A DNA stretch of 64,000 nt from Rubrobacter indicoceani (GTDB taxonomy: Bacteria; Actinomycetota; Rubrobacteria; Rubrobacterales; Rubrobacteraceae), in NCBI RefSeq assembly GCF_003568865.1, contig NZ_CP031116.1, forward strand, positions 62,001 to 126,000, in the 5' to 3' direction. How positions within the stretch are numbered: the stretch's first letter is position 1; every line of letters begins with the position of its first letter. Below the pieces are notes generated by a model. It ran no database searches. It worked only from the letters and a program-made list of their open reading frames with translations, and was not told the DNA's origin. This document shows positions 17,943 through 56,408 of this stretch, piece by piece. The position numbers and the translations under genes were made by a program.

Positions 17943-18815
17943 ATGCAGGGAAACTCCGAGGTCGGAAGCCGCACGAAAGCGGTCTCCGGCCTCTACCTTC
18001 GCCGGTGGAAACAGCAGCGTAAACTGAGCGTGCCGGTCGGAGAGGTCGGGTTGACGGAAGCGGGGGTCTGCACCTCGAAGGGGTACAACACAGAAGAAGA
18101 GCGGTACGGAGCGGTTGACCGCCGGACCCTGAAGCGGCCCGGGCGCGGGGCGCAATACGGCTCCGGCGCGGTCTACCTGACCTTCGACGACGGCCCCGAC
18201 CCGGTCTGGACGCCGCAGGTTCTGGACGCGCTCGACGCGGGGGGTGCGCGGGCCACCTTCTTTGTTATCACCCCGCTTGCCGGGCGGTACCCGCACCTTG
18301 TCGAGCGCATGATCTCCGGGGGACACGCGGTCGCGCTGCACTGCGTCCGGCACATCCGCCACACCGCACTCGACGCAGCGGAGATCCTTGCGGACGCCGA
18401 GAAAGGACTCGGGGATCTCGCCGCGCTTGGCGTGAAGACCCGGAACTGGAGGCCGCCCTGGGGCGTCGTTACGGAGGGCACCCGCGAGGCCGCCCGGACG
18501 CTCGGCCTCGAACTCCGGCTCTGGAGCGAGGACACGCACGACTGGCGCGGAGACCCCGCCGCCGGGATGCTCGAAAGCATAGCGCCGGGTCTTGCGGGCG
18601 GCTCCGTCGTCCTGATGCACGATGGCCTCGGACCGGGCGCGACCCGGCGGGGCTGCCCGGAGACCCTCGCGCTCATACCGGCGCTTCTGGAATCCATCCG
18701 GGAGCGCAGACTATCCCCGGCTGCGATGGGAGCGGCGGTCGGAGCGCAGGTCGGAGCGCAGGTCGGGCCGCACAGGGAAACCAGACGCGAGGGGGCCGGA
18801 CTATCCCCGGCCTGA
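17943..18815 (+). CDS. polysaccharide deacetylase (NodB domain)
   Basis: The product (290 residues from ATG 17943) has a NodB homology domain at about residues 77-255. The motifs are TFDDGPDP, GGHAVALHCVRH (in the place of the usual H-x3/4-H), RPPWG, EDTHDWRGD and VVLMHDG. It would remove acetyl groups from an amino sugar polymer or lipid-linked sugar. The first 60 residues are not typical and a start further downstream is possible. It lies 27 bases before the acyl-CoA dehydrogenase-like gene and may be the first member of that envelope cluster. Confidence 0.8.
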   Translation: MQGNSEVGSRTKAVSGLYLRRWKQQRKLSVPVGEVGLTEAGVCTSKGYNTEEERYGAVDRRTLKRPGRGAQYGSGAVYLTFDDGPDPVWTPQVLDALDAGGARATFFVITPLAGRYPHLVERMISGGHAVALHCVRHIRHTALDAAEILADAEKGLGDLAALGVKTRNWRPPWGVVTEGTREAARTLGLELRLWSEDTHDWRGDPAAGMLESIAPGLAGGSVVLMHDGLGPGATRRGCPETLALIPALLESIRERRLSPAAMGAAVGAQVGAQVGPHRETRREGAGLSPA

Positions 18816-18841
18816 GAGACAGTAAAAGCATCTCGGGGGAC

Positions 18842-19966
18842 GTGCGTCTCCGGGAGACGGTGCGGGAGATTTCTGCCGGGGCCGGGGCCCGCGACCGCGA
18901 CCCCGCCTTTCCGGAGGAGCCCTTCGGTCTTCTGGCCCGGGGCGGCTTTCTGGCCCTTCCGCTCCCGGGGGGTGCTTCTTCGAGCAACGGTCTGTCGGGG
19001 AACGGCCTCTTCGGGGACGGTCCGTCCTTTGCCGGGGAGTGGCGGGTGCTGAGGGAGGTCGCGCGGGCCGATGGATCTGTCGGTCGCGTTCTCGACGGAC
19101 ACTTAAACGGCGTCGAGCGGGTGTTGCTTCTAGCCCCGGAGCCGCTTCGAAGTCGGGAGATAGAAAGCATCGGAGCCGGGGAGCTCAGGCTCGGGGTGTG
19201 GGGGGCGGACCCGGTACCCGGCGAGGGCGAACCGGCCCGGCTTGTCCGGCGCTCGGGGGAGATCCGGCTCTCAGGGGTCAAGACCTTCTGTTCCGGGGCC
19301 GGGGGCCTCGACCGGGCCCTTGTAGCCGTGCGGGGCGAGGGCGGAAGACCGGGGCCGCCGCACCTGGCCTACGTGGACCTCACCGACCGCTCCGGCTATA
19401 AGGTAGACCGGACGTGGTACCGGAGCTCCGGGATGCGCTCTTCGGAGAGCCACCGGGTTGTCTTTGACGGGGCGCGGGTTCTGGCGGTGCTCGGGGAGCC
19501 GGGTGAACTGGTGCGCGAGCCGTACTTCAGCCGCGACGCCATAAGGACCGCCGCAAGCTGGGCGGGCATCTCCGACCTCGCCCGCGACGCCGCCCTTGAG
19601 ACGCTCGCCGCAAAGTCCGGCCCCGGCGGCCCCGACGACCTCGCCTCGCTCGCCGCCGGGCGCATGATCGCCCACTCCGAGACGATGGACCGCTGGCTCC
19701 AGGACGCCTCGGACCGGGCCGACAACGGACCCCGGCGGCTCGCCGGGGCCTACGCCGTCGCCCTGCGGCAGTCCGTCGCCTCGGCCTGCCGGGCCCTGCT
19801 CGACGAGGCGGTCCGGGCGTGCGGTTCGCACCCGTTTGCAACCGCCGGGCCGCTCGACCGGGCGAAGCGCGACCTCGAGCTTATCCTTCTGCAGCACCGG
19901 CTGGAGCCGGCCCTTGCAAAGACCGGGCGCCGGGCTATCGAGGAGACCGGAAGCGGGGGGCGGTGA
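18842..19966 (+). CDS. acyl-CoA dehydrogenase-like protein
   Basis: The 374-residue product is a diverged acyl-CoA dehydrogenase. It has a short N-terminal helical domain, a mid-domain with LRLGVWGADPV and IRLSGVKTFCSGAGGLDRALV, and a C-terminal four-helix region (REPYFSRDAIRTAASWAGIS onward). The usual catalytic-base segment near GGxG is not obvious, so FAD-dependent oxidation is likely but not certain. GTG 18842 starts it. Its stop overlaps the GTG of the methyltransferase, making it the head of a coupled cluster with sugar-transfer enzymes. This context points to modification of a carbohydrate or lipid rather than beta-oxidation. Confidence 0.75.
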   Translation: MRLRETVREISAGAGARDRDPAFPEEPFGLLARGGFLALPLPGGASSSNGLSGNGLFGDGPSFAGEWRVLREVARADGSVGRVLDGHLNGVERVLLLAPEPLRSREIESIGAGELRLGVWGADPVPGEGEPARLVRRSGEIRLSGVKTFCSGAGGLDRALVAVRGEGGRPGPPHLAYVDLTDRSGYKVDRTWYRSSGMRSSESHRVVFDGARVLAVLGEPGELVREPYFSRDAIRTAASWAGISDLARDAALETLAAKSGPGGPDDLASLAAGRMIAHSETMDRWLQDASDRADNGPRRLAGAYAVALRQSVASACRALLDEAVRACGSHPFATAGPLDRAKRDLELILLQHRLEPALAKTGRRAIEETGSGGR

Positions 19967-20553
19967 AGGCCGGAAGAAAGCGGCTGGAGCGCGAATACTT
20001 CGAGCGGCTCTACGAGAAAGACCCCGACCCCTGGGGCTTTGAGACAAGCGAGTACGAGCGGCGCAAGTACCGGGCGACGCTCGATGCGCTCGGGGAACGC
20101 AGGTTCGACAGCGGGCTGGAGGTCGGCTGTTCGATCGGGGTCTTCACCGGGCTTCTGGCGGACCGCTGCGGCTCGCTGCTTGCGGTGGACGCCTCGGAGC
20201 GGGCCGTGGCCGCCGCGCGGACGAGGCTCTCGGGCCGGGGGGGCGTCCGGGTGGAGCGCAGGACTATACCGGAGGAGACGCCGTCCGGCCTCTTTGACCT
20301 CGTGGTCGCCTCGGAGGTTCTCTACTACCTGCCGGAGGCCGTGATGCTCGACGCGCTTCGGAGGCTTGAAGCCGTTCTTTTGCCGGGGGGTATCTTTGTA
20401 GCGGTCCACTGGCGGCGCGAGACGCGGACCTATCCCCTGGGCGGGGACGACGTTCACCGGCTTATCCGCGAGCGGGAAGGCCCGCTCTCGCCGGTGCTCT
20501 CGAAAGAGGAGCCGGACTACCTGCTGGACGTGTACAGAAAAGACGGGGGTTGA
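19963..20553 (+). CDS. NodS-like SAM-dependent methyltransferase
   Basis: The 196-residue product starts with REYFERLYEKDPDPWGFETSEYE (about residues 8-30), typical of the NodS methyltransferase group. The SAM site LEVGCSIGVFTGLLA and the acidic motif LLAVDASERAV follow, then FDLVVASEVLYYL. NodS N-methylates a chitooligosaccharide amine after deacetylation; the present substrate may be an amino sugar but this is an inference. GTG 19963 overlaps the upstream TGA. It is coupled to the flanking genes. Confidence 0.85.
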   Translation: MKAGRKRLEREYFERLYEKDPDPWGFETSEYERRKYRATLDALGERRFDSGLEVGCSIGVFTGLLADRCGSLLAVDASERAVAAARTRLSGRGGVRVERRTIPEETPSGLFDLVVASEVLYYLPEAVMLDALRRLEAVLLPGGIFVAVHWRRETRTYPLGGDDVHRLIREREGPLSPVLSKEEPDYLLDVYRKDGG

Positions 20554-20558
20554 GGGAG

Positions 20559-21761
20559 ATGAGCGGGGGAGAGGGGATAGTCATCGTCGGGGGTGGCCCG
20601 GCGGGGCTGTCGGCGGCGCGGTCGTACAGGGAGGCGGGGGGTGAGGAGCGGGTGAGGCTCCTGTGCGCCGAGCGGCATCGGCCCTACGAGCGACCGCCGC
20701 TCACCAAGGAGTTTCTGCGGGGGGAGGGGTCTGTCGGGGATCTGCCTCTGGAAGACCCGGGCTGGTACAAAGAGAACGAGGTGGAGGTCTCGCTCGGCTC
20801 GGCCGTTGTCGCGCTTGACCGGGGGCTGCGCCGGGTGCGGCTCTCGGGCGGTGAGGAGATCGGCTACTCGCGGTGCGTCCTCTCACCGGGGGCGCGCCCC
20901 GCGCTGCCGCCCGTCCCCGGTGCGGACGGCCCCGGCGTGCGGGTGATAAGGAGGATCGAAGACGCCGAGCGGGTCCGAGAGGACTTCGCCGAAGGCAGAC
21001 GCCGGTTTGTCGTGATCGGGAGCGGCTTTATAGGCTGCGAGGCCGCCGCCTCGCTTGCGATGCTCGGGGGCGAGGTCGTCATGGTGACGATGGAGGAGGC
21101 GCCGCAGCTGGAGAGGCTCGGAGGGGACGTGTCGCGGGAGATATCCCTCTGGCTTTCCGGCCTCGGGATAGAGCTGCACGCGGGCGCGGAGGTCCGGGAG
21201 ATCCGCTCGTCCGGGGAGGAGCGGTCCGGGGACGGTTGCGAGGTCGCGGTCCGGGACGGCTCCGGTCGGGAGGGCGTGATCGGGGGTGATGCGGTCGTGC
21301 TCGGAGCGGGGATGCTGCCGAACGTGGGGCTTGCCGAGTCGGCCGGGCTTTCCGTGGACGGCGGCGTTGTCTGCGACGCTTCGATGCGGACCTCCGACGG
21401 GCGAATCTTCGCTGCGGGAGACGTGGCTTTCGCCATGAACGCGGCGGCGGGGCGCAGGCTCCGGGTCGAACACTGGGGCGACGCGCTCGGGCAAGGCCGG
21501 GTCTGCGGCGAGCGGCTCGCCGGGCGGGAGGCGGTCTGGGAGGCGGTACCGGGTTTCTGGTCCACTATCGGGGAGCGGACGATCAAGTACTCGGCCTGGG
21601 GCGACGGGTGGGACGAGGCCCGCTTCGACGGCGCTTCGGACGGGTTCACGGTCTGGTACGGGCTTGAGGGGCGGTGCGTCGGGGTGCTGACCCACGGGCG
21701 CGACGAGGACTACGGACGCGGCGGCGAACTGGTCGGGGCCGGGGCGAGGTTGGCGGGTTGA
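20559..21761 (+). CDS. FAD-dependent NAD(P) oxidoreductase (ferredoxin-reductase type)
   Basis: The 400-residue flavoprotein has an FAD Rossmann motif (IVIVGGGPAGLSAARSYREAG), the conserved ERPPLTKEFL loop of ferredoxin/rubredoxin reductases, and an NAD(P) motif (FVVIGSGFIGCEAAASLAMLG). It also has the TSDGRIFAAGDVA motif and the C-terminal reductase domain with HWGDALGQG. It should pass electrons from NAD(P)H to a small redox protein or oxygenase. No ferredoxin is encoded next to it. ATG 20559 is preceded by GAGGGAG; a TTG nine bases earlier is possible. Its stop overlaps the next gene. Confidence 0.85.
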   Translation: MSGGEGIVIVGGGPAGLSAARSYREAGGEERVRLLCAERHRPYERPPLTKEFLRGEGSVGDLPLEDPGWYKENEVEVSLGSAVVALDRGLRRVRLSGGEEIGYSRCVLSPGARPALPPVPGADGPGVRVIRRIEDAERVREDFAEGRRRFVVIGSGFIGCEAAASLAMLGGEVVMVTMEEAPQLERLGGDVSREISLWLSGLGIELHAGAEVREIRSSGEERSGDGCEVAVRDGSGREGVIGGDAVVLGAGMLPNVGLAESAGLSVDGGVVCDASMRTSDGRIFAAGDVAFAMNAAAGRRLRVEHWGDALGQGRVCGERLAGREAVWEAVPGFWSTIGERTIKYSAWGDGWDEARFDGASDGFTVWYGLEGRCVGVLTHGRDEDYGRGGELVGAGARLAG

Positions 21762-22594
21762 CGCTCCCCGCAGCGTCGCCGGAACTCAGGGTTGCGGTCG
21801 TCGTTCCGGCGAAGGACGAGGAGAGAAGGATCGGGGCCTGCCTCGACGCGCTCGCCGGACAGGTCGGGGTGGGGGCGTCGGAGTACGAGGTTCTGGTCGT
21901 GCTGGACGGCTGCTCGGACGCCACGGCGGAGGTTGTAGCCGGGCGGCGGGCGCGGCACCCGGACCTCGCGCTGCACGTTCTGGACGGACCGGACCGGGGC
22001 GTCGGGGCGGCGCGAAAGCTCGGCATGGACGTTGCCTGCCGAAGGCTTGCCTCGGTCTGCGGGCCGGGGGCTTTGATCGCCTCCACGGACGCCGACTCGG
22101 TGGTTGCGCCGGACTGGCTCTCCGCGCAGCTTCTGCTCGTCGAGGGCGGGGCCGGGGCGATAGGCGGCCGCATAGAGCTTGCCGGGGGCGGGTCGGACCT
22201 CCCGAAGCACGTACTCGACTGGTACGAAGAGCAGAGCCGGAGGCGGTACGCGAGGGTGATCTCGACCGGCCCGGAAACGCCTCAGGAACACTGGCAGTTC
22301 AGCGGGGCCTCGATGTCGGTTACGGTGGAGGTCTACCGCAGGGTCGGCGGTCTTCAAGGCGTCCGGTACCTCGAGGACGAGCACTTCGAGCAGACGCTGG
22401 AGGAGGCCGGGGTCGGGATCTTCCGGTCCTCATCCGTTCGTGTAACGACCTCGACGCGCACGACGGGACGGGCGGAGAGGGGTCTTGCGACCGACCTCTT
22501 CCGCGTCGTAAACGGGGCTGCCTGCGACGCGGGCGCGCCACCGGACGCCTCCCGGGAAGAGCCGGATGTGAAGACCCGGATACGGAGCGGGTAG
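21758..22594 (+). CDS. family 2 glycosyltransferase
   Basis: The 278-residue product has the GT-A fold opening (VAVVVPAKDEERRIGACLDAL), a nucleotide-sugar-binding region (VVLDGCSDATAE), the metal-binding DxD (STDADSVV) and an ASMSV ... EDEHFEQTLEEAG segment near the acceptor site. It should transfer a sugar from a nucleotide donor. TTG 21758 overlaps the TGA of the flavoprotein gene (TTGA). The membrane GT-C gene starts one base after its stop. The donor and acceptor are unknown. Confidence 0.85.
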   Translation: MTLPAASPELRVAVVVPAKDEERRIGACLDALAGQVGVGASEYEVLVVLDGCSDATAEVVAGRRARHPDLALHVLDGPDRGVGAARKLGMDVACRRLASVCGPGALIASTDADSVVAPDWLSAQLLLVEGGAGAIGGRIELAGGGSDLPKHVLDWYEEQSRRRYARVISTGPETPQEHWQFSGASMSVTVEVYRRVGGLQGVRYLEDEHFEQTLEEAGVGIFRSSSVRVTTSTRTTGRAERGLATDLFRVVNGAACDAGAPPDASREEPDVKTRIRSG

Positions 22595-22595
22595 G

Positions 22596-24236
22596 TTGCC
22601 GAAACTTCCGGCAGGAACGGTCCGAACCCCCGGGGGCGAAGGGTATCGTCTGGCGTTCGGGCGCGTCGTCTTCGCGTTCGTGGGGGCGATCGGCCTGGCG
22701 GCCCTTGTGTGGGGCTTTGTCGCGCGGGCGCGGGCGACAGGGGTGGTCAACGAGGACTCGTTTATCTCTTTTCGCTACGCCCGGAACCTTCTGGCGGGGG
22801 ACGGGCTGATCTTCAACCCCGGCGGCGAGCGGGTTGAGGGGATAACGAACCTGCTCTGGACGCTTGTGGTGGCCGGGGCCGGGCGCCTGCTGGACGTTCC
22901 CTTGCCCGAAGCCTCGGTCGCGCTCGGGCTGATCTGCGGCGCCCTGACGCTGGCGGTCGCGGTGGTGTGGGGTTACCGGGAGATATCCCGGTCGGCGGGC
23001 CGGTCGGCGGGCCGGGACCTCGGTTCCCTGGTCGCTTCGTTTATCGCCCCGGCTGTTCTGGTTCTGGCCCCCGGCTTCGCTTTCTACGCCGTCTCGGGGC
23101 TGGAGGTCGCGCTCTTCTCCCTGCTGCTCACGGCGGGTCTTTTCTGCGTGTGCCGGGACGGTTCGCTTCCGGTCGTGGTCCTGGGCAGCGTCCTGCTCGG
23201 CCTTGCGGCGATGACCCGGCCCGAGGGGGTGCTCGTCCTCGGCGTCGCGGCCCTTTGCTGCGCGTTTGCTCCGGGCGGGGGGCGGGAGAAGATCCTGCGC
23301 CTGCTCGCCGCCGGGGTCCCGGGCGGTCTTGTGGTCGCGGGGTTTACGGCCTGGCGGTTTTTCTACTACGGCTCGGTGCTGCCGAACACGGCCTACGCAA
23401 AGGCCGGCGGTATGGAGGTCGTCGAGCGGTGGGGGCTCCCGTATCTGATAAACGCGGCGAGCGGCAACTGGTTCGGAATCGCCTACCTCCTTGTACTCGG
23501 CGGCGCGCTTCTGGACCGCTCTTTTCTGCGCCGGAGCCTCGCTCTTCTCGTCATCACCCCGCTCTGGTGTGCCTACCTCGCCTACGCCGGGGGGGACTAC
23601 ATGCCGTTTCACCGGCTGCTTCTGCCGCTTCTGCCGGCCCTCTACGTGCTCGGGACGGCGGGCTTTGCGCGGGTCGCGGCCCTGCTCGTCTCGAACTCCG
23701 GCGGGTACGCAAGAGCCGCGGCGGTGGTCGGGGTTCTGGCCGCGGCCCTTGTAGCGCCCGTCTTTGTCCAGCTGCCGGACCTCTACGAGCGGGAGAAGGC
23801 CCGCCAGGAACACGACCTGCAGGACAACCGCGACCGCCGCGAGGTCGCCGCCTGGTTTCGTGAGAACGACCCGGAGGCCACCATAGCCAGAAACGGGGTC
23901 GGGGTCGTCGGCTACTACACGGAGCTTGAGATAGTGGACATGCTCGGCCTGAACGACAGGCACATCGCCCGCAACGGGCGCAAGGACCCGGCGACGCTCC
24001 CCGGACACCAGTCCTCGGACGCAGCCTACGTTCTTGACCGGGAGCCGGAGTACATCATGGTCGCGAGCCTCGGCCCGACCTACCGGTTCCCCGGCGACCG
24101 GGAACTCGTACGGTCCGACAGACTGCACGAAAAGTACGACCTCGTCAGCATAGAACTGGACTCGGGCCGGAAGATAAAGACCTTCCACCACGCCGACAGC
24201 CCCCTTGCCGCCTCGGTGGAGAGGATCAGCGGCTGA
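22596..24236 (+). CDS. GT-C type membrane glycosyltransferase (AftB-like)
   Basis: The 546-residue protein has about ten membrane segments from residue 20 to 405 and a soluble C-terminal part. The first loop NEDSFISFRYARNLLAGDGL, followed by NPGGERVEGITNLLW, matches the polyprenyl-phosphate-dependent GT-C glycosyltransferases, including actinobacterial arabinofuranosyltransferases. The loop ED pair is a candidate catalytic site. It would use a lipid-phosphate sugar on the outer face of the membrane. TTG 22596 is nearly fused to the preceding GT2 gene. The exact sugar is unknown. Confidence 0.8.
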   Translation: MPKLPAGTVRTPGGEGYRLAFGRVVFAFVGAIGLAALVWGFVARARATGVVNEDSFISFRYARNLLAGDGLIFNPGGERVEGITNLLWTLVVAGAGRLLDVPLPEASVALGLICGALTLAVAVVWGYREISRSAGRSAGRDLGSLVASFIAPAVLVLAPGFAFYAVSGLEVALFSLLLTAGLFCVCRDGSLPVVVLGSVLLGLAAMTRPEGVLVLGVAALCCAFAPGGGREKILRLLAAGVPGGLVVAGFTAWRFFYYGSVLPNTAYAKAGGMEVVERWGLPYLINAASGNWFGIAYLLVLGGALLDRSFLRRSLALLVITPLWCAYLAYAGGDYMPFHRLLLPLLPALYVLGTAGFARVAALLVSNSGGYARAAAVVGVLAAALVAPVFVQLPDLYEREKARQEHDLQDNRDRREVAAWFRENDPEATIARNGVGVVGYYTELEIVDMLGLNDRHIARNGRKDPATLPGHQSSDAAYVLDREPEYIMVASLGPTYRFPGDRELVRSDRLHEKYDLVSIELDSGRKIKTFHHADSPLAASVERISG

Positions 24237-26359: not shown

Positions 26360-27142
26360 ATGACTGCTATGGGCGATGGGATAAAGGGGCGGGTTCGGGA
26401 GCGGTATGCCGGGCTTGCGGAGACGAGTGGTTCGTGTTGCGAGGGGCAGGTCGGTGCCCTGACGGGCGGGGGTTATTCGGAGGCGGAGCCTGGTGAGGTC
26501 GGCGGGGCTTCAGCGACATCGCTTGGGTGCGGGAACCCGGTCGCGCTGGCGACGTTGTCTGCCGGGGAGGTTGTTCTGGATCTCGGGAGCGGCGGCGGCA
26601 TAGACGTTCTTCTCTCGGCGAGGCGGGTTCTGCCGGGCGGGAGGGCCTACGGTCTCGACATGACCGATGAGATGCTCGCTCTGGCGGAGAAGAACCGGGC
26701 GGAGTCCGGGCTTACGAACGTCGAGTTTCTGAAAGGTGAGATCGAAAGCATCCCACTCCCCGATTCGCACGTGGATGTGGTGATCTCGAACTGCGTGGTC
26801 AACCTCTCGACCGATAAGCCGAAGGTTCTCGCCGAGGCGCACCGCGTTCTGAAACCCGGCGGCAGGTTCGCCGTCTCGGACGTCGTGTTTCTCGGCAGGA
26901 AATCCGGGTTGCCGGAGCGCGTGCGCGAGAAAGTGGAGCTCTGGACGGGCTGCGTCGTCGGTGCGCTGGAGCGCGACGAGTATGTGCGGCTGCTCCTTGG
27001 GGCGGGGTTCACCGATGTCTCTGTCGAGGTGACAAACGAGTACGACGCGGGTTCAGTAGACGGCCTCACGACCGACGAGGAGAAGGACGTCTTCCGGCGG
27101 GTTCCGGCGGCGAGCGCGTTCGTGCGGGCGAGGAAGGCTTGA
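26360..27142 (+). CDS. arsM: arsenite S-adenosylmethionine methyltransferase
   Basis: The 260-residue product has the SAM site VVLDLGSGGGIDVLLSARRV and the cysteines that bind trivalent arsenic. C57 (SLGCGNP), C145 (ISNCVVNLS) and C198 (WTGCVVGAL) correspond to the three conserved ArsM cysteines, and an extra CC pair is at 26-27. It methylates As(III) to mono-, di- and trimethyl forms, which can be volatile. ATG 26360 lies just after the doubled ArsR operator; ATG 26369 is an alternative with better ribosome-site spacing. It is the first gene of the operon and overlaps arsR. Confidence 0.93.
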   Translation: MTAMGDGIKGRVRERYAGLAETSGSCCEGQVGALTGGGYSEAEPGEVGGASATSLGCGNPVALATLSAGEVVLDLGSGGGIDVLLSARRVLPGGRAYGLDMTDEMLALAEKNRAESGLTNVEFLKGEIESIPLPDSHVDVVISNCVVNLSTDKPKVLAEAHRVLKPGGRFAVSDVVFLGRKSGLPERVREKVELWTGCVVGALERDEYVRLLLGAGFTDVSVEVTNEYDAGSVDGLTTDEEKDVFRRVPAASAFVRARKA

Positions 27143-27513
27143 CGCTCAAGGGGGCCGGGGTGGAAGCTCCGTTCACGGGGGCGCGGGCAGAAGAACTCGC
27201 CGCGTTCGGACAGGCTCTGTCGGACCCGATACGGGTAAAGATGCTCGCCATGATGGCCTCCGGTCGCGAGCGCTGTTTGCTCCCCGGAGACCCTGTCCCG
27301 AACGCCGAAAGCTCATCCGGGTTGTGTGTCTGCGAGTTCGAGGAATACTTCGGGATGGCCCAGTCGAAGGTCTCGTATCACATGAAGAAGCTCAAGGAGG
27401 CGGGTCTGGTAAGCGAGGAGCGTCGCGGCCGGTGGAACTATTACTCCGTCAACCACGAAACCCTCGCCGGAGCGGCGGACGATCTGAAGGCGCTCGGGTG
27501 TCGCAGCGAGTGA
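27139..27513 (+). CDS. arsR: ArsR/SmtB family arsenic-responsive repressor
   Basis: The 124-residue winged-helix repressor has FGQALSDPIRVKMLAMMA, the metal-binding pair C63-x-C65 (GLCVCEFEEY) at the position of the ArsR LCVCDL motif, a third cysteine at C46, and the recognition region AQSKVSYHMKKLKEAGLV. Binding of As(III) should release it from the two boxes at 26310-26348. TTG 27139 overlaps the arsM stop, so repressor and methyltransferase are made together in an autoregulatory loop. Confidence 0.92.
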   Translation: MTLKGAGVEAPFTGARAEELAAFGQALSDPIRVKMLAMMASGRERCLLPGDPVPNAESSSGLCVCEFEEYFGMAQSKVSYHMKKLKEAGLVSEERRGRWNYYSVNHETLAGAADDLKALGCRSE

Positions 27514-27517
27514 TCCC

Positions 27518-27544
27518 GCAAAAGCAGAGAGACCCGGCTTTTGC
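27518..27544 (+). other. inverted repeat between arsR and arsH
   Basis: GCAAAAGC (27518-27525) and GCTTTTGC (27537-27544) form an 8-bp hairpin with an 11-base loop a few bases after the arsR stop. It may partly terminate transcription or protect the upstream message. Confidence 0.5.
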
Positions 27545-27595
27545 ACGATCACACCGAAGTGAAACCCACGCAAAGAGACCAGAACCGGAGGGTAA

Positions 27596-28318
27596 ATGAA
27601 CGGCTTTCCCGCGCTTTCACCGGAGTACCTCGACCCGCCCACGCATGAGAAGCTGGAGGTGCGGCGACCGTTTGCGCATCCGCCGCGCATACTCCTTCTG
27701 TACGGTTCGCTCAGGGAGCGGTCGTACAGTCGGCTGCTCGTCGAGGAGGCGGAGAGGCTGCTCACGAGCTTCGGGGCCGAGACCCGCATCTACGACCCTC
27801 GCGGTCTGCCGCAGCCGGACGATGCCGCGCCGGATCACCCCAAAGTCGCGGAGCTGCGGGCGGCCTCCCTCTGGTCGGAGGGACACGTCTGGTGCAGCCC
27901 CGAGCGGCACGGCGCCGTGACCGGCATCTTTAAATCGCAGATAGACTGGCTTCCGCTAAAGAGCGGCGGCGTGCGGCCGACGCAGGGGCGAACGCTCGCG
28001 GTGATGCAGGTCAACGCCGGGTCGCAGTCGTTCAATACCGTAAACGCCCTCCGGGTACTCGGACGCTGGATGCGGATGATCGCGATCCCCAACCAGTCGT
28101 CCGTTGCAAAGGCCTACGAAGAGTTCGACGAAGACGGTCGCATGAAACCATCGGCCTACTACGACCGGCTCGTAGACGTAATGGAGGAGCTGGTCAAGTT
28201 CACCCTCCTGACGCGGGAGAGATCAGACTACCTTGTAGACCGCTACAGCGAACGGAAAAGCGAAGGACGCCCGCCGCATGGTCAGCCTCACCTCGAGGAC
28301 GCCCGCGACGCCTCCTGA
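27596..28318 (+). CDS. arsH: arsenical resistance protein ArsH (NADPH FMN reductase)
   Basis: The 240-residue flavodoxin-like protein has the FMN phosphate loop [17 protein letters not shown], the [21 protein letters not shown] region, and the [24 protein letters not shown] region typical of ArsH (not of general NADPH quinone reductases). ArsH oxidises toxic trivalent methylarsenicals to the pentavalent form. It pairs logically with ArsM upstream. ATG 27596 follows CGGAGGG. It lies about 80 bases after arsR. Confidence 0.92.
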
Positions 28319-28393
28319 GCGCCGGTCGTCAGACCGCGGACATCCCGAAATCATTGTTTAACCGGCCTGAAACCCGGACCGGGCGAAGCTTAT

Positions 28394-28409
28394 ATAAACT
28401 GCCCTTGAT
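28394..28409. promoter_or_regulatory. possible degenerate ArsR box before arsC
   Basis: ATAAACTGCCCTTGAT matches the ATCAA-N6-TTGAT frame of the two operator boxes with one mismatch in the left half. It lies 25-40 bases before the first arsC start in an AT-rich patch (TTATATAAA), where a secondary promoter is plausible. Confidence 0.45.
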
Positions 28410-28433
28410 TTCGAACCCGGAAAGGAACCCCAG

Positions 28434-28865
28434 ATGGAGAAGCAGCGCGTTCTATTTCTCTGCACCCACAACTCCGCCCGCAGCCAGATGGCCGAGGGGC
28501 TGCTAAGAGAAGTCGCCGGAGAGCGCTTCGAGTCGCACAGCGCCGGTACGGAGAAGACGCACGTAAGGCCGCTCGCGATAGAGGCGATGCGCGAGGTCGG
28601 GGTGGACCTCTCCGGGCAGGAGTCCAAGACCCTGGATCGCTACATCAGGGAGCCGTTCGACTACGTCGTGACGGTCTGCGACTCGGCAAACGAGGCCTGT
28701 CCGTTTTTCCCGAACGCCCGGGAGAGGCTGCACTGGTCCTTTCCCGACCCGTCGAAGGCGGAGGGCTCGGAAAAGGAGAAGCTGGCGTTCTACGGGGAGG
28801 TCAGGGACGCCATCCGCAGGCGCATCGAAAGCGAGCTCGTAAACGTCGGGAGCGCAAGGAGTTAA
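28434..28865 (+). CDS. arsC: thioredoxin-type arsenate reductase (copy 1)
   Basis: The 143-residue low-molecular-weight phosphatase-fold reductase has the CX5R loop C10THNSAR16 and the two resolving cysteines C82 and C89 (VTVCDSANEACPFF). These are the same positions as in the staphylococcal pI258 ArsC. It reduces arsenate to arsenite and is recycled by thioredoxin. GAAAGGA precedes ATG 28434. It is followed 29 bases later by a second, diverged arsC. Confidence 0.93.
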   Translation: MEKQRVLFLCTHNSARSQMAEGLLREVAGERFESHSAGTEKTHVRPLAIEAMREVGVDLSGQESKTLDRYIREPFDYVVTVCDSANEACPFFPNARERLHWSFPDPSKAEGSEKEKLAFYGEVRDAIRRRIESELVNVGSARS

Positions 28866-28894
28866 ACCGGAGCCTTATCTTCGGAGAAAGGAAT

Positions 28895-29395
28895 ATGGTC
28901 GTGAAGGGGTCAAGAAAGCAGCGGGTTCTTTTCCTGTGTACCCAGAACTCGGCGCGCAGCCAGATGGCGGAGGCGCTTCTCAGGCATCACGCCGGGGACC
29001 GGTTCGAGGCGTACAGCGCGGGGGTGCACGCGGCAGATGAGATCCATCCCCACGTCGAGCGAGTGCTGTCCGAGGTAGGGGTCTCTATGGCCGGCCAGCG
29101 TCCGAAGCCGCTCGGGGAGTACTTCGGCAAGGTCGGGTTCAACTACCTCGTGATCGTCTGCGCAAGGGCGGAGAGGGAATGCCCGGTTAACTTCCCCGGC
29201 GTCGGGACGCGGTTTTCGTGGATCTTCGACGACCCGCGCGGCGCGTCGGTGGCCGAAGAAGACCGGCTGGAGAAGTTCCGCAAGGTGCGGGACGGCATAG
29301 AGCTGCGCATCCTTGACTGGCTTGACCGCCCCGAAACCGAGCTTGCAAAGCTCCGCAGGGAGCGCGAGGTGGAACGCGCCGAGCGGCTGGCTTAG
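28895..29395 (+). CDS. arsC: thioredoxin-type arsenate reductase (copy 2)
   Basis: The 166-residue product has the CX5R loop at C15TQNSAR21 and the resolving cysteines C89 and C96 (IVCARAERECPVNF), so it keeps the redox triad. It also carries a C-terminal charged extension (LRREREVERAERLA). The residues between motifs differ strongly from copy 1, suggesting separate acquisition rather than recent duplication. Such proteins are also called ArsC-type protein-tyrosine phosphatases. It lies 29 bases after copy 1. Confidence 0.9.
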   Translation: MVVKGSRKQRVLFLCTQNSARSQMAEALLRHHAGDRFEAYSAGVHAADEIHPHVERVLSEVGVSMAGQRPKPLGEYFGKVGFNYLVIVCARAERECPVNFPGVGTRFSWIFDDPRGASVAEEDRLEKFRKVRDGIELRILDWLDRPETELAKLRREREVERAERLA

Positions 29396-29502
29396 ATACT
29401 TCGTCTCAGGCTTCTCCGTCTTCTGGAAGTCTCCATACAACGCGAGCACCCCCTCCGGGTGGATAATCCCTTCAAGGACGTGTCGGCGGGACGGGAGCGT
29501 GT

Positions 29503-30969
29503 GTGGTGAGCGAGGTAGTGGTTCTCGGTGGCGGCCCGGCGGGGGTAACGGCGGCTCTTCGGGCGCGGGAGCTGGGCGCGTCCGTTGCGCTCGTCGAGCG
29601 GGGTCGGCTCGGCGGGACGTGCACAAACGACGGCTGCGTCCCGACCCGCGCTCTGGCAAAGGCCGCGAGGCTTGTGCGTGACGCGGAGCAGTTCGGCCTC
29701 TACGGTCTTTCGGGCTCCGTGCCGCAGGTTGACTTCGCGGGGGTCCTCGGCGCGGCCCGGCGGGTGGTCGAGGAAGTTCACGCAAAGAAATCCCTTGCCC
29801 GGCGGCTCCGGGAGGCCGGGGTCCGGGTCGTGGATGAGGCCGGAGCGGTCGCGTTCGCCTCACCCGAGACCGTGAGCCTCGAGTCGGGGGGTGAGCTCGG
29901 CGCCGACCGGTTTATCGTCTGCGCGGGCGGACATGCAAGGAGGCTCGGGTTTCCGGGGGCGGAGTACGCCCTGACCCACAGCGACGTCTGGGACATGGAG
30001 ACGCTCCCCAAAAAGGTAGCGGTCGTCGGCGCGGCCGCGACGGGCTGCCAGCTTGCCTCGGTCTTTGCGGCGTTCGGCTCCGGGGTAACCCTTCTGGACC
30101 TTGCCCCGAGGCTTCTCCCCGGCGAGGACGAGGCGGTCTCACGGGCGGTAACGGAGAGCTTTGCGAGGCGCGGCATCGGCGTGCGGACCGGGCTCGACGG
30201 CATAGATAAAATAGAGAAAATAGAGAAGCCGGAGAAGGGGGACGCCCGGTTCGTGGTCTCCTACACGCTCGGGGAGGAAAAGCGGACGCTCTCGGTCGGG
30301 GCGGTCGTGCTCTCGGTCGGGTGGCCGGGGAACGTGGATTCTCTGGGCCTGGAGCTTGCGGGGGTCGCGACGGAGCGGGGCTACGTGGTGGTGGACGACA
30401 CCCTGAAGACAAGCGTCCCGCACATCTACGCCGCCGGGGACATAACGGGGCGGATGATGCTGGTGCAGAGCGCGACGCAGGAGGGGCGGCTCGCGGCGGA
30501 AGGGGCGGTTCTAGGCGACGGGCGTCCGTGGCGGCACGAGATAGTCCCGCACGGCGGCTTCACCGACCCGGAGTACGCAAGCGTCGGCCTGACGGAGGCC
30601 GCTGCGCGCCGGATCACGGACTGCGTCGTCGCGAGCGTCCCGTACTCCGACCTCGACCGGGGCGTGATAGACGGCTACCGCGAGGGGGTGTGCAAGCTTG
30701 TCGTGGAGCGCGGCACGAGGCGCATCCTCGGGGCGCACATCGTCGGGGAACAGGCCGTCGAGGTCGTCCAGCTTGTAGCCACGGCGATGCGCGGGGTCAT
30801 GCGCGTCGACCAGCTCGCCGACCTCGAACTCGCCTACCCGACCTTTACTGCCGTCGTGGGGCTGGCCGCCCGCGCCGCAACCCGCCAGCTCGACGCGAAC
30901 GGGTCGGTCTCGAACGGCCGCAACCGCCCCGAAGCCGCCGAGTGGGAACTCGGACGCGACAGGCTCTAA
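29503..30969 (+). CDS. MerA/dihydrolipoamide-dehydrogenase-like FAD oxidoreductase
   Basis: The 488-residue flavoprotein disulfide reductase has the FAD motif (VVVLGGGPAGVTAALRARELGA), the redox pair C40 and C45 (GGTCTNDGCVPTRAL), and an NAD(P) site (VAVVGAAATGCQLASVFAAFG). The second FAD motif is IYAAGDIT and a C-terminal dimer domain follows. The C terminus reads AYPTFTAVVGLAA, without the His-Glu pair of lipoamide dehydrogenase or the vicinal cysteines of mercuric reductase. No N-terminal HMA domain is present. GTG at 29503 or 29506 starts it. It lies about 107 bases after arsC copy 2 and may act on arsenical or thiol substrates. Confidence 0.85.
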   Translation: MVSEVVVLGGGPAGVTAALRARELGASVALVERGRLGGTCTNDGCVPTRALAKAARLVRDAEQFGLYGLSGSVPQVDFAGVLGAARRVVEEVHAKKSLARRLREAGVRVVDEAGAVAFASPETVSLESGGELGADRFIVCAGGHARRLGFPGAEYALTHSDVWDMETLPKKVAVVGAAATGCQLASVFAAFGSGVTLLDLAPRLLPGEDEAVSRAVTESFARRGIGVRTGLDGIDKIEKIEKPEKGDARFVVSYTLGEEKRTLSVGAVVLSVGWPGNVDSLGLELAGVATERGYVVVDDTLKTSVPHIYAAGDITGRMMLVQSATQEGRLAAEGAVLGDGRPWRHEIVPHGGFTDPEYASVGLTEAAARRITDCVVASVPYSDLDRGVIDGYREGVCKLVVERGTRRILGAHIVGEQAVEVVQLVATAMRGVMRVDQLADLELAYPTFTAVVGLAARAATRQLDANGSVSNGRNRPEAAEWELGRDRL

Positions 30970-43110: not shown

Positions 43111-43151
43111 ACGGACGGATTTCAGGAGCTTAAAGGATGGGAGGAGGGGGG

Positions 43152-44585
43152 ATGACAAAGCAGAGGGCGGAGACGCGGCACATCGTCAAGGCGGAGGGGA
43201 ACTTCGAGGATCTCCCGTACTTCACCGTCGGCAACCAGAGCAACAGCGAGGGGGTTCTGGAGTACCGGGCTGAGATCAAAGCCGCAGACGGGAAGGTGTT
43301 GAAGCAGATCTGGACGGTCAGGGCACCGAGCGGGCTTGGGCTTCCGGGGTCTCTGGATCAGGATGTCTACGTTGCTCTTCTGCAGATCATAGACCGCCAG
43401 GGCGGCATCCCCGAGGGCGGGGTTCTCTCGTTTTCGATGTACGAGTTGATGCAGCTTCTCGGTAGGACGGTCGGGGGTCGGGACTATCAGCAGGTCAAGC
43501 GGTCCCTGGAGCGTCTGAACGGGACCATGATCCACAGCAAGAACGCTTTCTACGTCAAGCGGACCCAGTCTTTTCTGAACGACAAGACCTTCAAGCTCCT
43601 TGACTACGCCGAGTACTCCGAGGCTACCGACGCTTCGGGCCGGAGCGTCGAGCGGATGCACGTAAAGCTCTCGGATTACTTTATCGAGTCCTACAACTCG
43701 GATTACCTGAAGGGTCTGGATACGGATTTCTACTACTCCCTGAACTCCGCCGTCGCTAAAAGGCTCTACCGCTTTATAGACAAAAAGCGGAACAACCGGT
43801 TCCAGTGGGAGGTGGATCTCTTCTCCCTGAGAGATCGCATCCCCCTCAGCAGCAACTACAGGTACCCGTCGAAGATCAAGGAAAAGCTCGACCCGGCCCA
43901 CGATGAACTTATAGACAAGGGATTTCTCGAGAGCGTCAGCATAAACGTCATGCCCGACAAGTCCCGGATGGTCTGCTATCGCCTCTCCGAGGGTTTCTCC
44001 CAGAGAAGGCCGGCCCTACAGTTCGAGCGAACCCCGGAGAACACGATCGCCCTCGAGAGGCTCAAGGTCGAGGGGGTCTGGGGACACGTCGCCGAGGAGC
44101 TCGTCTCCCTCTACGGTGCCGACTGGTGCTCTTTCTGTGCCGAGAAGGTCTCCTTCAGAAAAGGTATCCGGGACCGGGGACCCTACCTCAAACGCGTCAT
44201 AGAGGGCCACCAGGACCGTGAACTCCAGCCCGATCCCGCATCCCGGAGCACAACCGACCCCCAGACCCCCATCCTTCTCGACCCCCCCGAACCGTCCTCT
44301 CCGAAAGCGGACCCCGAAGCACAGAGAATATGGAACATAATACTCGAGTCTTTTCTGACCGAAGAGGGCTCCCGCTCCCACGGGGTCTGGTTTGAAGATA
44401 CCGCCGCCGTCTCCTACAGGGACAACACGCTAACCGTACTCGCCCCCAACGACGTTGCTCGTGACTACCTTATCGAGCGTTTCTCCCTGTCTCTCACCTC
44501 CGCCGGTCAGTCCCTCATTGCCTCCGAATTTTCTATCCTTATACTTCCTTCCAGAATCCCTTTCGTCTTCACCTCTGGCTCCTGA
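43152..44585 (+). CDS. repA: plasmid replication initiator protein A with DnaA-N-like C terminus
   Basis: The 477-residue protein has the replication-initiator-A core at about residues 12-285 (EGNFEDLPYFTVGNQSN, FSMYELMQLLGRTVGG, DTDFYYSLNSAVAKRLYRFIDKKR, the last two within winged-helix folds). A hydrophilic Pro/Ser linker (about 350-388) follows. Residues 390-460 (RIWNIILESFL, WFEDTAAVSYRDNTLTVLAPN, DYLIERF) resemble DnaA domain I, which recruits helicase. It should bind the iterons next to it and start theta replication. ATG 43152 has a GGAGGAGGGGGG site. The frame opens 15 bases earlier but without spacing to a ribosome site. Confidence 0.88.
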   Translation: MTKQRAETRHIVKAEGNFEDLPYFTVGNQSNSEGVLEYRAEIKAADGKVLKQIWTVRAPSGLGLPGSLDQDVYVALLQIIDRQGGIPEGGVLSFSMYELMQLLGRTVGGRDYQQVKRSLERLNGTMIHSKNAFYVKRTQSFLNDKTFKLLDYAEYSEATDASGRSVERMHVKLSDYFIESYNSDYLKGLDTDFYYSLNSAVAKRLYRFIDKKRNNRFQWEVDLFSLRDRIPLSSNYRYPSKIKEKLDPAHDELIDKGFLESVSINVMPDKSRMVCYRLSEGFSQRRPALQFERTPENTIALERLKVEGVWGHVAEELVSLYGADWCSFCAEKVSFRKGIRDRGPYLKRVIEGHQDRELQPDPASRSTTDPQTPILLDPPEPSSPKADPEAQRIWNIILESFLTEEGSRSHGVWFEDTAAVSYRDNTLTVLAPNDVARDYLIERFSLSLTSAGQSLIASEFSILILPSRIPFVFTSGS

Positions 44586-54926: not shown

Positions 54927-56408
54927 CTAGCTTGTCTTTCGGGCGTCCGGCAGAACCGTCACGTTAAAGGCCGTTCCCTCGGACATATCAGCCCGGTCCT
55001 GGTTGAAGATCGCCCACCTCCCGGCGCCGGAGTCGTACCAGACGCCCACCGCGCGGTCGTTGTACGTGCCGTTGTCGTTGCCCGGGTTCCAGTTCTGCGT
55101 TACAGAGATAATGGCGTCGGGGTTGCCGTTTACCCGGCTGTTGTCTATGTAGGTGCTGTTGCCCGAGATGTTGCCTGGAGCGGCGCGGTGAACGGAGGCG
55201 AAGACAACCGGCTCCGGAGCTTCTGCAGCGGGCAAGGCCGCCGGTCCGGTCGGTGCGGGGGCCGCTTCGGACCGCTCGTTAGCGCCCCCCGTGAAGTTGC
55301 GGAGGACCTCACCTGCGCCGGCCTCCGCAAGACCGAGAACACCCGCCGCTCCGAGCAGCGCGGCGACGGACAGCGCGGCGGCCCCGGCAAGGTACCCGCT
55401 CAGGCGTTTTCTGCTTCTTCTTTTCCGGGCCGCAACGCCCACCACGGTGTCGGCCTCGGCTCTATCTCCCGCCCGGGCCCCGCCGGGCCGCAGGCCGGGC
55501 GAACCCGCCCGTCGGTTCACCGCATACTCTCTGGCAAAGCCGCGCCCGGGGCTTTCGGCCTGTGTCAGTCTGTCCCCGACGAGCTCGAGGTCCGCTATGA
55601 GTTCAGAGGCAGTATCGTAGCGCTCGGCCTGGTTTTTGGCCAGCAGCCTCCCCACCACGACCTCCATCCCGCCCGGAAAGTGGGAGTCACCGACCTTAAG
55701 AGCGTAGAGCCTCGGGGGCAACTCGTTTATGTGCTTTATGGCCGTGGCGAGCGGGCTGTCGGCCTCGAAGGGCCGCTCGCCGGTGAGCATCTGGTAGAGG
55801 ACAACGCCCAGGGAGTACAGGTCGCTCGCCGGCCCAACCTCCTCCCCCATGGCCTGCTCGGGGGACATGTAGTCAGCGGTGCCGAGCGCAAACCCCGTCC
55901 GGGTCATGCAGGGCGCCGAAGCGGCGCGGGCGATGCCGAAATCCGTCAGCTTCGCCTCGCCCGAGACGGTGAAGAGAACGTTCTGGGGCTTCACGTCCCG
56001 GTGTATGACCCCGCCGTCGTGGGCGGCGCCGAGGGCCCTTGCCACCTGGTGTGAGATCTTCACGGCCGCACGGGCTTCAAGAGGTCCTTCCCGAAGGATA
56101 AGTTCCTTCAGCGTGCCGCCCGATACGTACTCCATCACGATAAACTGGGCGCCGTCGTCGGTCTCGCCCAGATCGTAGACCGGGACTATGTTCGGATGGG
56201 AGAGCGCGGCGGCACTTCTTGCCTCGCGCCTGAAGCGCTCGACGGACTCCTCGTCGTCAGCGAACGGCCGGGCGAGTATCTTTACCGCCACATCTCGATA
56301 AAGAACCTCGTCACGGGCCAGATACACCTCGCCCATACCGCCCCGACCGACAAGGTCCGACGGACGATAACGGTTGTCTATCAAGGACGGTGACGCGCCG
56401 TCGATCAT
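54927..56408 (-). CDS. membrane Ser/Thr protein kinase with DUF7452-like extracellular domain
   Basis: The 493-residue protein starts with a PknB-like kinase domain (about 14-280): LVGRGGMGEVYLARD, AVKIL (ATP lysine), HRDVKPQN (catalytic loop), TDFGIAR and SPEQAMGEEVGPASDLYSLG. A basic linker and one membrane span follow at about 336-361. The outside part, from about 402, is a VHRAAPGNISGNSTYIDN ... VTQNWNPG ... GVWYD ... WAIFNQD domain that matches DUF7452-type secreted modules. Binding to that domain may control the kinase. ATG 56408 starts it; it converges with the recombinase gene. Confidence 0.9.
   Translation of the reverse strand: MIDGASPSLIDNRYRPSDLVGRGGMGEVYLARDEVLYRDVAVKILARPFADDEESVERFRREARSAAALSHPNIVPVYDLGETDDGAQFIVMEYVSGGTLKELILREGPLEARAAVKISHQVARALGAAHDGGVIHRDVKPQNVLFTVSGEAKLTDFGIARAASAPCMTRTGFALGTADYMSPEQAMGEEVGPASDLYSLGVVLYQMLTGERPFEADSPLATAIKHINELPPRLYALKVGDSHFPGGMEVVVGRLLAKNQAERYDTASELIADLELVGDRLTQAESPGRGFAREYAVNRRAGSPGLRPGGARAGDRAEADTVVGVAARKRRSRKRLSGYLAGAAALSVAALLGAAGVLGLAEAGAGEVLRNFTGGANERSEAAPAPTGPAALPAAEAPEPVVFASVHRAAPGNISGNSTYIDNSRVNGNPDAIISVTQNWNPGNDNGTYNDRAVGVWYDSGAGRWAIFNQDRADMSEGTAFNVTVLPDARKTS

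Follow-up and report, generated by a model that had tools for sequence, protein, structure and literature searches.

A NodB-containing variant of a cross-phylum gene set in Rubrobacter indicoceani, with a putative role in amino-sugar modification

Nod factor synthesis includes two successive steps on one amino sugar: NodB exposes an amine, which NodS then methylates. A second kind of described system is provided by the group D flavin-dependent monooxygenases, which adopt the fold of acyl-CoA dehydrogenases (ACADs) and count N-hydroxylases among their members (PMC6165268); KijD3, a sugar N-oxygenase of the ACAD fold, figures in the reference list of that paper. In the group D enzyme DszC, His391 assists the formation of the C4a-hydroperoxyflavin (PMC11134501). 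Relatives of both systems stand side by side in a 64,000-nucleotide stretch of Rubrobacter indicoceani DNA (contig NZ_CP031116.1, positions 62,001 to 126,000; hereafter the window, with positions counted from its first letter), where a row of five genes at 17943-22594 encodes a NodB-family deacetylase (NodB), an ACAD-fold flavoenzyme, a NodS-like methyltransferase (MT), an FAD/NAD(P)-dependent reductase (FADR) and a family 2 glycosyltransferase (GT2). With a probability of about 0.5, this row represents the NodB-type form of a gene set that is spread across phyla and comprises GT2, a deacetylase, a NodS-like MT and an ACAD-fold monooxygenase, whose product would be an amino-sugar glycoside or glycolipid that is de-N-acetylated, N-methylated and oxidised by a flavin enzyme. 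The kind of cluster is recurrent, and the form with NodB plus reductase is a defined new variant of it; the open-access literature yielded no paper that names the gene set or assigns it a product, an outcome that agrees with an earlier reading of the window's letters (the original prediction).

The stretch from NodB to GT2 constitutes a conserved, heritable, operon-like module. A homologue of the flavoenzyme gene occurs in 23 of the 35 other Rubrobacteraceae genomes, and the order NodB, flavoenzyme, MT, FADR, GT2, on one strand, is found in every undecayed relative locus situated on a long enough contig; such conservation within the family is far above chance. The flavoenzyme gene and a close MT are both absent from four relatives (G002, G008, G011 and G022), and two other genomes that lack the flavoenzyme gene (G010 and G012) give weak MT matches only. 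The block lies next to aspS on the chromosome of many relatives, while in the window strain and in G001 it is located elsewhere. The window sits on a contig of 169,605 bases that bears a RepA/TrfA-like replication initiator (43137-44585); this 169.6-kb contig is therefore read as a plasmid, and the cluster is probably plasmid-borne in this strain. A comparison of the cluster DNA with PLSDB returned no close plasmid relative. Since many relatives carry the block on the chromosome beside aspS, the genes from NodB to GT2 appear to move as a unit. Separately, a stop or a disrupted frame breaks the flavoenzyme gene of L052/L077 (Rubrobacter marinus) and that of L053, and in L057/L074 only a decayed fragment of the gene is left.

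These limits differ from those of the original prediction, which had described a five-gene row running from the flavoenzyme to a GT-C-like membrane glycosyltransferase (GT-C), with NodB outside it. The unit is delimited as NodB to GT2 because gene order is kept, the flavoenzyme gene and the close MT are lost jointly, the location of the block shifts and GT-C lies elsewhere. NodB thus belongs to the unit, and GT-C, a local neighbour, was rejected as a member: it is found in none of the relatives' cluster loci in Rubrobacteraceae. Its homologue in G001 is about 375 kb away, and those of G004 and G016 are on contigs other than that of the cluster. The scattering among relatives that had been named as a possible counter-observation is accordingly true of GT-C only. 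The five reading frames and their tight junctions are as had been described. The flavoenzyme stop and the MT start share GTGA (19963-19966), FADR and GT2 share TTGA (21758-21761), and MT and FADR are joined either by a TTGA overlap (20550-20553), if the TTG start is used, or by a five-base gap to the ATG at 20559. A single base separates the end of GT2 (22594) from the start of GT-C (22596), a distance that is uncertain, like the GT-C start codon itself, because homology of this protein begins only at residue ~22-25. The spacing between the end of NodB (18815) and the start of the flavoenzyme gene (18842) is 26 bases, not the 27 reported earlier.

Beyond the family, 80 contigs were collected through a search with an alignment of the MT family, as the flavoenzyme alignment contains no conserved stretch and was unusable as a query; the open reading frames of these contigs were scored with hidden Markov models. 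Two types of locus are distinguished. Type A combines NodB, the flavoenzyme, MT, FADR and GT2 and is confined to Rubrobacteria and Thermoleophilia. Type B combines the flavoenzyme, the deacetylase PIG-L, MT and GT2 and is distributed over Actinomycetes, Bacteroidota, Cyanobacteriota and Alphaproteobacteria, occurring also on annotated plasmids of Kitasatospora, Roseivivax, Sphingomonas, Deinococcus (including D. radiodurans), Roseomonas and Novosphingobium. NodB and PIG-L are mutually exclusive in these loci: NodB is present on 21 of the 80 contigs, PIG-L on 52 and both on none, and the 7 with neither comprise one cut at the contig end, one isolated MT and five without a deacetylase call. A second sample, drawn evenly from Actinomycetota and including the window's own family, held 396 genomes, and the flavoenzyme was detected in 49 of them. 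Outside Rubrobacteraceae there are 25 such genomes, of which 21 carry PIG-L, one carries NodB with FADR, three carry neither and none carries both; the sole NodB genome belongs to Thermoleophilia and is also present among the 80 contigs. Strong FADR scores are limited to type A and to two related loci in which NodB was not called (L079 and the one cut at the contig end); PIG-L-type loci never carry FADR, and nearly all NodB-type loci do.

Gene order in type B is variable (PIG-L, MT, GT2, flavoenzyme; GT2, PIG-L, flavoenzyme, MT; and others), yet the genes stay together, which favours a shared pathway over frozen synteny. In the flavoenzyme tree, the NodB-type rows fall within one clade (SH-aLRT 100), which also takes in one row without a deacetylase call; the deacetylase therefore appears to have been exchanged once or very few times. 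The original prediction had taken the trio of flavoenzyme, NodS-like MT and GT2 for a recurrent bacterial set usually accompanied by PIG-L, which is seen across more than 100 loci, and it correctly recorded that the window cluster has NodB alongside and no PIG-L, the latter being absent from every NodB-type locus. Its suggestion that a flavoprotein takes the place of PIG-L was rejected: it is NodB that substitutes for PIG-L, and the reductase comes as an extra gene in NodB-type loci. The lone PIG-L of the host genome is also unlikely to serve the cluster, being remote, divergent and scoring 34 bits against the profile of cluster PIG-L proteins. Among the neighbours of type B loci in several phyla are genes for UDP-galactopyranose mutase, GT1/GT4 and GH1-like proteins.

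Gene fusions suggest which enzymes act one after another. PIG-L and MT are fused in 15 loci across Actinomycetes and Bacteroidota (Agreia, Pedobacter, Lewinella and others), and the flavoenzyme and MT form one protein in an Acidobacteriota contig. In two Deinococcus loci (L032 and L059), the flavoenzyme gene is much longer than elsewhere, the extra part being N-terminal; judged by eye and by comparison with the GH1-like neighbour in L138, this part looks like a GH1-type glycosidase.

The flavoenzyme was originally taken for an acyl-CoA dehydrogenase; its sequence indicates that it is probably not one and is instead akin to flavin monooxygenases of the ACAD fold. The YEGT-loop position of the catalytic Glu, set by alignment with a genuine ACAD of the same genome, is occupied by Q351 (19892-19894), and Gln stands there in all 38-43 homologues aligned, while the alternative, helix-G site of the IVD type holds Ile, Val or Trp in the family and no Glu. 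Other invariant residues are R82 (19085-19087) and H87 (19100-19102). Neither of the terminal ACAD domains of Pfam, Acyl-CoA_dh_N and Acyl-CoA_dh_1, matches the protein, and Acyl-CoA_dh_M alone is found (7e-07), at 29.7 bits against a gathering cut-off of 33.3. As a control, the genuine ACAD encoded at 1077-2195, in the same window and on the same putative plasmid, matches all three domains. On these residues and domains the dehydrogenase function was rejected. When the family profile is compared with PDB, DszC (1.3e-36) and MsuC (3.6e-33) lead, followed by ACADs mixed with amino-sugar nitrososynthases, the latter at about 2e-25; for the AlphaFold model (pLDDT 93), the top Foldseek matches are TdsC, DnmZ and DszC. 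The modelled fold is that of ACADs, with Z ~37 to them. The aligned residues nevertheless indicate that the enzyme is not DszC itself, because His391 and His92 of the latter are replaced by Gln351 and Arg82.

The companion proteins match Polysacc_deac_1 (NodB, 3.6e-26, over the cut-off), NodS (MT, 8.9e-19), Pyr_redox_2 (FADR, 2.4e-55) and Glycos_transf_2 (GT2, 1.5e-14) in Pfam. All five motifs of carbohydrate esterase family 4 (CE4), including the D-D and H-x3-H metal and base residues, are present in 32-33 of the 33 aligned cluster NodB proteins, the exception being one fragment without motifs 1-2. The MT scores above the gathering score of Pfam NodS and finds in PDB both NodS itself (3ofj, 3.8e-16) and a structural-genomics protein (4isc, 4.4e-26). 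FADR resembles rubredoxin and putidaredoxin reductases (3fg2, 1.2e-51; 1q1r, 1.3e-47) and may supply reduced flavin to the neighbouring monooxygenase. Genes for generic flavin reductases occur in each of the six genomes tested, whether of type A or type B, which could explain how type B does without FADR.

In the proposed pathway, GT2 would transfer an N-acetylated amino sugar onto an acceptor, making a glycosidic bond, and NodB would then take off the N-acetyl group, a step that PIG-L would perform in other lineages. The NodS-like enzyme would methylate the freed amine, and the ACAD-fold enzyme, with reduced flavin from the NAD(P)H-dependent FADR, would oxygenate the amine or a neighbouring atom. 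We infer the amino-sugar substrate, the order of the steps, modification at N rather than at O or C, and the service of FADR to the monooxygenase. The deacetylase and the NodS-like MT are in every case adjacent or joined in one protein, so the simplest reading is that de-N-acetylation comes first and the amine is then methylated, and the likeness to a sugar-type flavin oxygenase such as KijD3 suggests oxidation of the same amine or of a nearby position. The exchange of NodB and PIG-L between lineages represents natural evidence for an obligatory de-N-acetylation step, and de-acetylation therefore looks essential to the product of the cluster.

Several findings weigh against this pathway. Whole-fold Z-scores place the flavoenzyme equally close to true ACADs and to monooxygenases, and its oxygen chemistry is a prediction only, with Gln351 and Arg82 standing opposite His391 and His92 of DszC in the profile alignment. 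The NodB protein scores 113.4 bits, far under the cut-off of 240 for the TIGR04243 equivalog, and the MT scores 74.6 bits, far under the cut-off of 300 for the NodS equivalog NF041650 (both NCBIfam). FADR belongs to the ferredoxin-reductase family and not to the flavin reductases of HpaC/DszD type, and the host genome also encodes four generic Flavin_Reduct proteins. Moreover, five loci (L079, L124, L126, L134 and L138) have the monooxygenase and MT with no deacetylase call nearby, and the NodB-type locus L078 is without the reductase.

In a rather less probable scheme, the module is the same, the MT is an O-methyltransferase, the flavoenzyme acts on carbon, which it hydroxylates or oxidises in the sugar or in a lipid aglycone, and the deacetylase unmasks an amine for its charge. 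Most group D monooxygenases hydroxylate carbon (PMC6165268), and sequence alone fixes neither the oxidised nor the methylated atom; the PIG-L-MT fusions and the homology to NodS nonetheless favour the amine as the methyl acceptor.

A doubtful proposal concerns the acceptor in NodB-type loci, which would be glucosyl(phospho)glycerate, the product being a modified compound of glucosylglycerate type, either a compatible solute or a molecule resembling methylglucose polysaccharide. It draws on Thermoleophilia, where GT2 is fused to glucosyl-3-phosphoglycerate synthase (GpgS) as a C-terminal domain that scores 321-377 bits against an NCBIfam equivalog cut-off of 262 and has its DxD motif intact (intact fusion loci L080, L081, L082, L089 and L117), and on the separate GpgS homologue, 53% identical, that the host genome retains. 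On the other side, the fused domain is degraded in many Rubrobacteraceae (165-209 bits in the two tested), with DxD lost in most copies, and it has gone from GT2 in others, among them G001, the window and the window's genus; the PIG-L-type GT2s that were tested contain no GpgS domain.

A version built on the original prediction, in which a true acyl-CoA dehydrogenase would provide the N-acyl-amino-sugar glycolipid with its unsaturated acyl chain, agrees with the overall fold but is improbable given the invariant Gln in 43 aligned homologues, the missing terminal domains that the genuine ACAD retains, the lack of an acyltransferase from all variants of the module, which leaves an N-acyl product unsupported, and a NodA-family match that is remote (C1:1.31 Mb) and missing from two cluster-bearing relatives. 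Acylation of the Nod factor type was likewise rejected, since no NodA is linked and the host's NodA-family match reads by eye as a GNAT protein. The gene at L216 5876-6460 (G000:C1 1.309 Mb) exceeds the Pfam NodA cut-off and encodes an apparent GNAT enzyme amid purine-catabolism-like genes.

If the flavoenzyme is a monooxygenase, the chemical target shifts from an acyl chain to an oxidised, methylated amino sugar. The module extends over the 49 of 396 sampled Actinomycetota (the window's family included), Bacteroidota, Cyanobacteriota, Alphaproteobacteria and Deinococcus plasmids, one of them in D. radiodurans. On a speculative and unlikely extension, these loci would make an undescribed, widespread class of N-methylated, N-oxidised amino-sugar glycosides, perhaps built on glucosylglycerate in the NodB lineages, with two unrelated deacetylase folds recruited for one step and a benefit to surface-exposed, stress-tolerant bacteria; the link to desiccation and ultraviolet tolerance is drawn from genus names.

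Table 1. Genes of the NodB-to-GT2 unit and its downstream neighbour (positions in the window).
Product	Position	Strand	Remarks
NodB-family (CE4) polysaccharide/N-acetyl-sugar deacetylase	17943..18815	+	First gene of conserved unit; start codon uncertain; domain ~18162-18512
ACAD-fold flavoenzyme, probably group D flavin-dependent monooxygenase	18842..19966	+	Profile, AlphaFold, fold search, residues
NodS-like class I S-adenosylmethionine-dependent methyltransferase (MT)	19963..20553	+	Pfam NodS, PDB profile matches
FAD/NAD(P)-dependent reductase (FADR), rubredoxin/putidaredoxin/BphA4-type ferredoxin reductase family	20559..21761	+	Alternative TTG start 20550
GT2 glycosyltransferase, single-domain form, 278 aa	21758..22594	+	Glycos_transf_2; motif DADS
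GT-C-like membrane glycosyltransferase	22596..24236	+	Local neighbour, outside conserved unit; weak AftB-like NCBIfam match

GT-C has no match in Pfam, and its weak AftB-like match has an E-value of 7.6e-09. Elsewhere in the window, an arsenic island (26360-30969) encodes ArsM, ArsR, ArsH (401.7 bits, over the cut-off), two ArsC-like proteins of the low-molecular-weight phosphatase type and a MerA/Lpd-like flavoprotein, and the gene at 54927-56408 specifies a Ser/Thr protein kinase that carries a DUF7452 domain at its C-terminus.

Among known systems, Nod factor synthesis shares with the cluster a CE4 deacetylase, a NodS-like MT and a GT2 in one operon, together with the parallel of de-N-acetylation followed by N-methylation. 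It differs in that the cluster contains neither NodA nor NodC and misses the NodB and NodS equivalog cut-offs, and in that the flavoenzyme and FADR have no counterpart in it. The two-component monooxygenases of group D (DszC/TdsC, MsuC and the nitrososynthases ORF36, KijD3 and DnmZ) resemble the flavoenzyme in having the ACAD fold without the catalytic Glu and provide its best profile and Foldseek matches; the differences are that Gln351 and Arg82 occupy the sites of His391 and His92 in DszC, and that the adjacent reductase is of another family. GpgS corresponds to the C-terminal domain of the Thermoleophilia GT2 genes, a domain that has decayed in many members of Rubrobacteraceae and that the window's genus no longer has. 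The set of flavoenzyme, PIG-L, NodS-like MT and GT2 found in Deinococcus, Hymenobacter, Spirosoma, Methylobacterium, Nostoc, Kitasatospora and others has a homologous flavoenzyme (25-34% identity), MT (35-49%) and GT2, the same tight linkage and one deacetylase; in contrast to it, the cluster described here has NodB (CE4) for PIG-L (LmbE fold), an extra FADR and the fixed order NodB, flavoenzyme, MT, FADR, GT2, with GT2 fused to GpgS in the NodB-type loci of Thermoleophilia.

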